Source of the DNA: an uncultured Oscillospiraceae bacterium
Lineage (GTDB): Bacteria; Bacillota; Clostridia; Oscillospirales; Oscillospiraceae
Length of the DNA: 53,099 nucleotides
Assembly (NCBI GenBank): GCA_944386855.1
Contig: CALXCR010000030.1
Location: forward strand, 1 to 53,099
Reading direction: 5' to 3'
Numbering within the stretch: the first letter of the stretch is position 1; each line of letters begins with the position of its first letter. Under the pieces are notes generated by a model, which was given only the letters and a program-made list of their open reading frames with translations, ran no database searches and was not told the DNA's origin. The position numbers and the translations under genes are program-made. This document shows, one piece after another, positions 34,469 through 38,271 of the stretch.

Positions 34469-34951
34469 ATGGAATTAAAAAGCGACCACAAGGATATATT
34501 TGACCGCATTATGGATCTCGCGCCGTTTCGGAGGTTTGCTCCGATGTACAAAAAGCATAAAAGAGTACTGCTGTATCTGTTTTTCGGCGCGCTTGCCTAT
34601 GCGGTCAGTATGACGTCGTACTGGGCGTTGAATATACGTCTTGGCATCGATGCGCTCATCGCAAACGTACTCTCATGGGTTATAACGGTGTCGTTTGCAT
34701 TTGTAACGAACAAGACATGGGTATTTTCCGCACATGCAGACGGTGCAAATTCACTTTTAAGACAGCTGACGTCATTTTTCGGCGGGAGAGTTGTCACGCT
34801 CCTGATAGAAGAGGCTATACTCGCCGTGTTCATAACGTGGCTGGGATTGAACAGTATGCTTGTAAAAGCGGCGGCACAGTTTATAGTGATAGTTCTAAAC
34901 TATATTATAAGCAAGGTGTTCGTATTCAGACACCGGAAAAGCAAAATTTAA
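34469..34951 (+). CDS. GtrA-family membrane protein
   Basis: This 160-residue protein has about four hydrophobic helices (from about 31, 57, 101 and 123) and the GtrA pattern NVLSWVITVSFAFVTNKTWVF (split across about 69-89). It ends in the typical FIVIVLNYIISKVFVFRHRK. GtrA proteins are thought to help move lipid-linked sugars across the membrane for surface polysaccharide or teichoic acid glycosylation. No glycosyltransferase partner adjoins it. A strong terminator overlaps its stop codon. Confidence 0.92.
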   Translation: MELKSDHKDIFDRIMDLAPFRRFAPMYKKHKRVLLYLFFGALAYAVSMTSYWALNIRLGIDALIANVLSWVITVSFAFVTNKTWVFSAHADGANSLLRQLTSFFGGRVVTLLIEEAILAVFITWLGLNSMLVKAAAQFIVIVLNYIISKVFVFRHRKSKI

Positions 34952-34981
34952 AAGGAGATGCAATTTTTGCATCTCCTTTTT
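34950..34981 (+). terminator. Rho-independent terminator after the GtrA gene
   Basis: A perfect 14-bp stem (34950-34963 with 34967-34980) has a 3-nt loop and ends in a T run. It overlaps the GtrA stop codon. Confidence 0.93.
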
Positions 34982-35172
34982 GCGGCCAGACGCCTGACTT
35001 TCGGCGGAAACTGCGGTTGCTCGTGCATGAGTTCCGCCGGTGATGCAGGCTCAAAATACGCCGATCTGTTGTTACACCATGCCGCCTCCTTACAGCAGGT
35101 CATGATATACCGCCGCTGTGAGGCAAGCCGTATTTACCGCAGCGCCTGTCTGCCTTGCCTCGTGGCGGTGGA
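34982..35172. other. Gene-free, highly structured island between convergent terminators
   Basis: This stretch of about 190 nt lies between the GtrA (+) and DHHW (-) terminators and holds no gene I can support. It is rich in nested complementarity. CGGCGGAA (35002-35009) pairs with TTCCGCCG (35032-35039). ACCGCC (35109-35114) pairs with GGCGGT (35164-35169), and inside that GAGGCAAG (35120-35127) pairs with CTTGCCTC (35154-35161). On the minus strand AGGAGG (35085-35090) is followed by ATG-GTG-TAA, a two-codon frame. It could be a structured RNA, a dispersed repeat or a decayed gene. Confidence 0.5.
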
Positions 35173-35173
35173 A

Positions 35174-35210
35174 TATAAAAGCTCCGAAAGCATATCGCTT
35201 TCGGAGCTTT
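35174..35210 (-). terminator. Rho-independent terminator after the DHHW gene
   Basis: A perfect 14-bp stem (35178-35191 with 35197-35210) has a 5-nt loop. On the minus strand it is followed by TTTTATATT. It lies 15 nt after the stop codon. Confidence 0.9.
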
Positions 35211-35224
35211 CGCGTTTTATCTCG

Positions 35225-36325
35225 TTATCTCATAAGCATCGAACTGTTGAGCATCGACGCGGAATAGAGGAAAAGCACATCCTGATCCGCAAAGGTGACA
35301 TAGTCCTCGATGAATGAAGAGTTGATGTAGCGCAGATCGATGAGCGTTATCTTCGAGTAAGCACCGGTAAACAGCGGGGCGATACTTGAGCCGAACGAAT
35401 CGCGGAATATAATAAGCTCTCTGTCGGACCTCGCGTCGGGGCACTCAAGCGTCAGCACGGACTGCGCACCGGACAGAAAGAGATCGTATCCGTCAAGTCC
35501 GTAAAACCTGTCTACGGGGTACACAAGCTCCGACGATGTGCCCTCAATGCCGGTGACGGTCGTGGCATCGGTAAAATCGCTGACACAGTATACGAGGGTG
35601 TCCGCATCCGAGCTCAGCGCCGCCTGACCGTAGTATACGCCGTAAAACGGGGAGAGTTCATGCTTTTCGTAATCGCCCTCCGGCGTCATAAGTTCCGCGA
35701 TACCCATACCGTCAGCCAAAGCCATCGCAGTGTCAAAAATCTTGTCCTGAGACCAGTGCGAGTCGGTTCGGTAGTAGTCGTCGAGTGACAGAGTATTAAA
35801 AATGTCAATATACTCAACGTCTATGAGGTTTTCGTTCATAATATCGACAAGACGGTTGTAATCGAATTCGGAGTCGTTGTTACCCAGGAAATAATTCTTA
35901 TCGGGCACGACTGAAAAATAGACGTCGGCGTCGATTAGGAGCGTCTCGCAGAGCCAGTTTATGAGGTTTGCACCGTATAGGAGCTGCGTCTCGTCGAGCG
36001 GTGATTCTTGTTTAAAAATATGACCGTTTTCGATCCAGTAGCCGTTTACATCCTGCTGACGGAAAATGTCAAGGCGCACAAAAGAGTGGAAACGCCGGAA
36101 CAGCTCGCGCAGCGGAAATTGATCGAGCGCGTACTCCTCAAGTTCGGACGACAGTTCGCCGGACAACAGAGCATCGGCCGTAAGATCGGGCATCTGCGCA
36201 AGCTTTCTCCGCTCCGACAGCGAAAGAGAACCGTCCGGCATGAGGATATGTGCGGCAAACAGGCCGAAAATGATTGAGCAGATCAGTATTATAGTAAAGT
36301 AGTCTTTAAATTTTCTCATCGTCAA
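35225..36325 (-). CDS. DHHW-family protein (AlgJ/AlgX-like, polysaccharide acetylation)
   Basis: This 366-residue protein has one N-terminal membrane helix (about 8-29), so the rest lies outside the membrane. The DHHW motif is present as RTDSHWSQ (about 185-192), and FRDSFGSSIAPLF (about 303-315) supplies the serine block of the SGNH-like fold. AlgJ/AlgX relatives finish the transfer of acetyl groups onto exopolysaccharide. The start codon overlaps the stop of the MBOAT gene (ATGA), which supports joint work: MBOAT moves the acetyl across the membrane and this protein places it. The target polymer is unknown. Confidence 0.88.
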   Translation of the reverse strand: MTMRKFKDYFTIILICSIIFGLFAAHILMPDGSLSLSERRKLAQMPDLTADALLSGELSSELEEYALDQFPLRELFRRFHSFVRLDIFRQQDVNGYWIENGHIFKQESPLDETQLLYGANLINWLCETLLIDADVYFSVVPDKNYFLGNNDSEFDYNRLVDIMNENLIDVEYIDIFNTLSLDDYYRTDSHWSQDKIFDTAMALADGMGIAELMTPEGDYEKHELSPFYGVYYGQAALSSDADTLVYCVSDFTDATTVTGIEGTSSELVYPVDRFYGLDGYDLFLSGAQSVLTLECPDARSDRELIIFRDSFGSSIAPLFTGAYSKITLIDLRYINSSFIEDYVTFADQDVLFLYSASMLNSSMLMR

Positions 36326-37746: not shown

Positions 37747-38271
37747 TTATTTGAGCGCGAGGAAATTTTCGGTGATGGCGTCGGTCGTGGCCTCGCTCGA
37801 CATAACAAGGAGGACAAGGCGTCCGTTCGTGCTGACGGACACTTTTTCCGCCTCGACGCAGAGCCATTTGCGCGGGTCGGCATTTGCCTCGATATCGTCT
37901 GCGATCTCCTGGACATCAGTTCCCTCCGGTACGCGGAGCAAGACGACGGAATGCGCTATAGCGTTTATGGCCGCGTCGCTCGAGACAGCTTCCATGCCGT
38001 CGATGTAATCGGTAAACGCGACATACGGGAATGACTGTTTCATTTCATCGGTCGTGAGGTCGGTGTCGAGAAGCGGATCGGGCAGATCGGCGACGCCGTC
38101 GAGTATCTCTGCCATAAGATCCGTGAGCGGGGTGGAATCAAGTCTTGAATCCTCTGAGGACGAAGAACTGCCTCCGCAGGCCCAAACCGATGAGGACGAA
38201 GAACTGCCTCCGCAGGCCGAAACCGATATGAGCATCATTACTGAAAGTAGAAGTGCGGTAATTTTTTTCAT
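37747..38271 (-). CDS. DUF4358-like lipoprotein with duplicated lipobox segment
   Basis: This 174-residue protein has a lipoprotein signal peptide (residues 1-20, MKKITALLLSVMMLISVSAC) with lipobox VSAC. A Ser-rich linker follows and then a mature domain with the pattern of DUF4358 proteins (TDEMKQSFPYVAFTDYIDGMEAVSSDAAINAIAHSVVLLRV, split as about 83-100 and 101-123). The function of DUF4358 is unknown; here it heads an apparent operon with MBOAT and DHHW genes, so a part in polysaccharide acetylation is inferred. The first 12 residues after the signal core are duplicated in tandem (see the repeat entry). AAGGAG lies about 11 nt before the ATG. Confidence 0.82.
   Translation of the reverse strand: MKKITALLLSVMMLISVSACGGSSSSSSVWACGGSSSSSEDSRLDSTPLTDLMAEILDGVADLPDPLLDTDLTTDEMKQSFPYVAFTDYIDGMEAVSSDAAINAIAHSVVLLRVPEGTDVQEIADDIEANADPRKWLCVEAEKVSVSTNGRLVLLVMSSEATTDAITENFLALK
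38156..38227 (-). repeat. Tandem 36-bp duplication inside the lipoprotein gene
   Basis: Two adjacent 36-bp units (38156-38191 and 38192-38227) differ at a single base. They encode SVSACGGSSSSS and SVWACGGSSSSS, so the lipobox cysteine and Ser linker occur twice in frame. The second copy has Trp where the lipobox needs a small residue. Confidence 0.93.

Follow-up and report, generated by a model that had tools for sequence, protein, structure and literature searches.

Gene order and coding potential of the locus

The window, i.e., the whole analysed stretch of 53,099 nucleotides, contains two convergent genes at the site of interest. According to the ORF list, the upstream gene is gtrA-like (34469..34951, plus strand, 160 aa) and presumably encodes a membrane protein of that family. 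Its convergent partner (35225..36325, minus strand, 366 aa) encodes a DHHW-like protein and lies directly downstream of an MBOAT-like gene; we assigned all of these names from the sequence. The gene ends at 34951 (plus) and 35225 (minus) leave an intergenic spacer of 273 bases. The first intrinsic-terminator-like hairpin (34950..34980) consists of 14 perfect pairs, with TTTTT following on the plus strand, and the second (35178..35210) serves the minus-strand gene and is terminator-like on the plus strand too. The island between both terminator hairpins (34984-35178) is about 195 bases long, with a G+C content of 57% vs 51% for the window. The window as a whole contained no tRNA, and the island had no tandem repeat. 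Elsewhere in the window, two near-perfect 36-base tandem copies (38155-38227) are located in the 5' part of a lipoprotein-like gene (174 aa, 37747-38271).

The hexamer scores were negative in all six frames of the island, the best being -0.07 per codon vs a coding mean of 0.52, and a Pfam search of the island gave no match. The original description of the island as gene-free and structured is correct. Relatives of the DHHW gene were detected in 77 of 119 genomes. At the 19 homologous loci read, with up to 1.5 kb of downstream sequence, gtrA never followed the DHHW gene; mostly a terminator was found and then different genes. The gtrA-DHHW junction is therefore lineage-specific. None of the 19 spacers convincingly matched the island, and a same-junction comparison failed because no relative among the loci read keeps the junction.

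Stem-loops and fold statistics

The minimum-energy fold of the plus strand of the island contains 61 pairs (54 Watson-Crick and 7 G-U) arranged in three stem-loops. Stem-loop A (34992..35050) has an outer stem, GCCTG/CAGGC (34992-34996/35046-35050), and a core (35001-35009/35032-35040), within which the previously reported 8-bp pairing 35002-35009/35032-35039 (CGGCGGAA/TTCCGCCG) is exact. Stem-loop C (35063..35101, arms 35063-35072/35092-35101), absent from the original list of pairings, has 10 pairs, two of them G-U, and a 19-nt loop. In stem-loop B (35105..35176), which has a 26-nt loop, 22 of 23 positions are paired (18 Watson-Crick, 4 G-U): a short piece, 35105-35108/35173-35176, is joined to 18 uninterrupted pairs, 35110-35127/35154-35171, which on the plus strand comprise 14 Watson-Crick and 4 G-U pairs. 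The nested pairing described earlier as 6 bp plus 8 bp is present, but its parts are not separate and belong to one longer helix (35105-35176). The arms of stem B (35105-35127/35154-35176, 78% complementary) form a long inverted repeat of the kind sought in REP and MITE elements; they do not sit at the ends of the island.

Hairpin B had a z score of -4.51, and none of 200 shuffles was equally stable, while hairpin A reached a z of -2.57 against its shuffles. For the whole island, the z scores were -2.85 on the plus strand and -1.11 on the minus strand, with folding energies of -78.3 vs -68.8 kcal/mol; this plus-strand advantage of 9.5 kcal/mol was reached in one of 150 shuffles. Read on the plus strand, every wobble position in stems B and C is a G-U pair. 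Helices of 18 pairs like that of B occurred at about 0.25 per 409 kb of simulated sequence. Considering both strands and loops of up to 40 bases, the helix of B ties for the longest in the 53-kb window, the other one being AT-rich, and all other helices of at least 18 pairs in 409 kb of the own genome have short loops except that AT-rich one. Stem-loop B is the feature of the island least explicable by chance.

The minus strand carries the sequence AAGGAGG-CGGC-ATG GTG TAA (35072..35091), in which the ribosome-binding-site-like AAGGAGG (35091-35085) and CGGC precede ATG (35080-35078), GTG, and TAA. The strong binding site and two-codon frame noticed originally are thus present, and a Shine-Dalgarno sequence plus start was found in only 0.3% of shuffles. 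Since this site falls within the loop that the middle stem closes, the plus strand shows an anti-Shine-Dalgarno sequence there: in the predicted fold, loop C (35073-35091) holds CAUGCCGCCUCCUU, complementary to a Shine-Dalgarno sequence plus AUG, and its C-rich stretch is unpaired, as looked for in anti-Shine-Dalgarno small RNAs.

To place the island in its genomic background, 409 kb of own-genome stretches with 148 predicted spacers were used, many of which contain GC-rich stretches and strong folds. By whole-length fold z, the island ranked 236 of 528 intergenic windows on the plus strand (398 on the minus strand), a ranking somewhat unfair to it since its terminators were excluded and the other windows keep theirs. 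Taken as a whole, the island is average: its degree of structure does not exceed that of the genome's other spacers. The view that convergent gene ends need no such structure fits this genome poorly, where structured spacers are common.

Search for copies and relatives

A BLAST search of the own genome (a draft of 174 contigs, 94% complete) with E values up to 10 returned the island itself and otherwise matches of 14-22 nt. Likewise, a covariance model spanning the island's full length, weak because it was built from a single sequence, found only the island in this genome. By both methods, the island is a single copy, which speaks against the dispersed repeat proposed earlier. DNA searches of 60 relatives, 400 family genomes, and 394 order genomes (overlapping groups) revealed no relative; the count of weak matches was near the chance expectation, and those inspected (14-41 nt) lay mostly inside unrelated coding genes. 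The best match among them (L005, 34 nt at 88% at a gene end) was rejected, with about 0.1 such matches expected over the genomes searched, and a 21-mer found in both a phage scaffold and a family genome proved to belong to one unrelated locus. Translated searches on both strands yielded nothing real. The island was absent from class relatives, phages, plasmids, and viral contigs, and exact-pattern scans of viral contigs and 85k species genomes (GTDB) were empty or at chance level. Targeted translated and pattern searches for a suspected dispersed repeat with translations recurring in Clostridia databases were also empty.

Rfam 15 gave no match in the window, and the island produced only noise below the gathering threshold. 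Outside the own genome, the best covariance-model match scored 23.7 bits over 159 genomes (some 300 Mb), which is unremarkable given that about 13 bits are already reached in single own-genome stretches of tens of kilobases. Two such matches were discarded, one (L077) being antisense to a coding gene and the other (L076) intergenic, but with a chance-level score and broken stems. The lack of homologues, one of the three results that had been named together as grounds for abandoning the original prediction, thus holds within the collections searched, and consequently no covariation can be shown. Comparison with other genomes gave no support to the proposed new structured RNA, as neither DNA, translated, nor covariance-model searches found a homologue.

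Several dispersed hairpin families occur in the spacers of the own genome, convergent-gene spacers included, and the island matched none of them. In one family, the core GGACAYGYGCC is constant, and the arms vary between copies yet remain complementary (TTTTCGTAC../..GGACGAAAA; AATTCCGG../..TCGGAATT); its copies are at L142:16849 (minus), L150:3538 (plus), L151:3642 (plus), L152:9879 (minus), and L136 about 12590 (minus). Rfam gave no match on the stretches holding this hairpin, which looks like a covarying structured element. An element of roughly 250 bases is present between convergent genes in two copies with 92% identity (L142:16698-17029 and L136:12399-12760), each bracketed by two near-identical terminator hairpins of locus-specific sequence, resembling the outcome of an insertion into the terminator or of its duplication by the element. 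Another dispersed family of hairpins (ACCRTTTCTTTT..AAAAGAAAYGGT) was found at L144:16529 and 16924, L148:1798, L150:15078 and 15473, L151:18075, and L152:3211 and 5378.

Interpretation and likeness to known systems

With slightly better than even confidence, we read the island as a lineage-specific non-coding spacer with a genuine inverted repeat, most likely a relic and having at most a passive role. A one-off spacer is most likely, rather than a new RNA family. In this lineage, two gene clusters may have ended up in convergent orientation, leaving the island as the spacer between them. The relic could derive, for example, from a small hairpin-bearing insertion or a palindrome without surviving sister copies, and if either terminator were read through, hairpin B might act as an extra structured barrier between the convergent transcripts. 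The relic origin and passive role are what we infer, and no other reading of the island is as economical as a relic. Against it stand the strand-asymmetric fold and the plus-strand G-U wobbles in stems B and C, which would fit selection on a plus-strand RNA, and also the anti-Shine-Dalgarno sequence neatly placed in a hairpin loop. Signs of insertion at the island, such as terminal repeats, a target duplication, or a transposase, were not seen; the island may still be the decayed mobile fragment suggested originally, for which the inverted repeat is the one positive sign.

An unlikely reading, and the most interesting one left, is a species-specific small regulatory RNA. It would be read from the plus strand through the three stem-loops, end at the 35178-35210 terminator, and pair through CAUGCCGCCUCCUU of the middle loop with the Shine-Dalgarno and start regions of its targets, blocking translation. 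The strand-asymmetric stability, the z score of hairpin B, the anti-Shine-Dalgarno plus anti-AUG sequence in the predicted loop, and the terminator-like site right after the island are consistent with such an RNA. However, no sigma-70-like promoter site was found on either of the island's strands, and immediately before it stands the strong gtrA terminator. Genome sites matching the loop C complement with up to three mismatches were not enriched (92 vs 124 for the reversed control), the lack of homologues leaves no covariation, and the asymmetry and loop statistics were picked after the sequence was seen. That the RNA was recently born, its loop making it a candidate translation repressor, is rather unlikely; if the small-RNA reading were true, it would exemplify a translational repressor of recent, species-level origin. 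In this genome, spacers that are structured and GC-rich are routine, and a set of good-looking hairpins counts for little as evidence for an RNA when it has no relatives.

It is likewise unlikely, and a shade more so, that the island is a degenerate lone copy of a dispersed intergenic repeat, with the other copies lost, diverged too far, or located in the part of the genome that the draft misses. The incomplete assembly and the dispersed hairpin families in the same genome's spacers, some between convergent genes, would suit this origin, but the island resembles none of these families, and neither BLAST (beyond 22-nt matches) nor the covariance model found another copy. A remnant of a decayed protein gene is very improbable: the G+C content is coding-like and frames are open by chance on both strands, but the best hexamer score is far from the coding mean, and neither a Pfam match nor a translated relative was found. 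A minus-strand leader or minimal ORF (ATG GTG TAA) acting in translation control is scarcely credible despite its strong Shine-Dalgarno sequence and start, as it is located after the DHHW gene's terminator and no minus-strand gene follows, only the antisense of gtrA.

The island, as a spacer that is probably a relic, was compared with known systems. Bidirectional intrinsic terminators between convergent genes also have the spacer bracketed by terminator hairpins, two in this case; unlike in those systems, the 195-base island is extra between the hairpins, and hairpin B has no U-tract. The Firmicutes small RNAs RsaE and LhrC have a hairpin loop with a C-rich stretch that is the complement of Shine-Dalgarno sequences. 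Loop C is similar in this respect, but the island differs from them in lacking a promoter, conservation, and enriched targets and in having CCUCCUU instead of the UCCC motif. REP/MITE-like elements differ from the island, which is a single copy in which neither transposase-type ends nor a target duplication was seen, and for which no relatives were found; with them and with orphan intergenic inverted repeats, it shares its non-coding, intergenic nature, a long imperfect inverted repeat, and flanks formed by gene ends.
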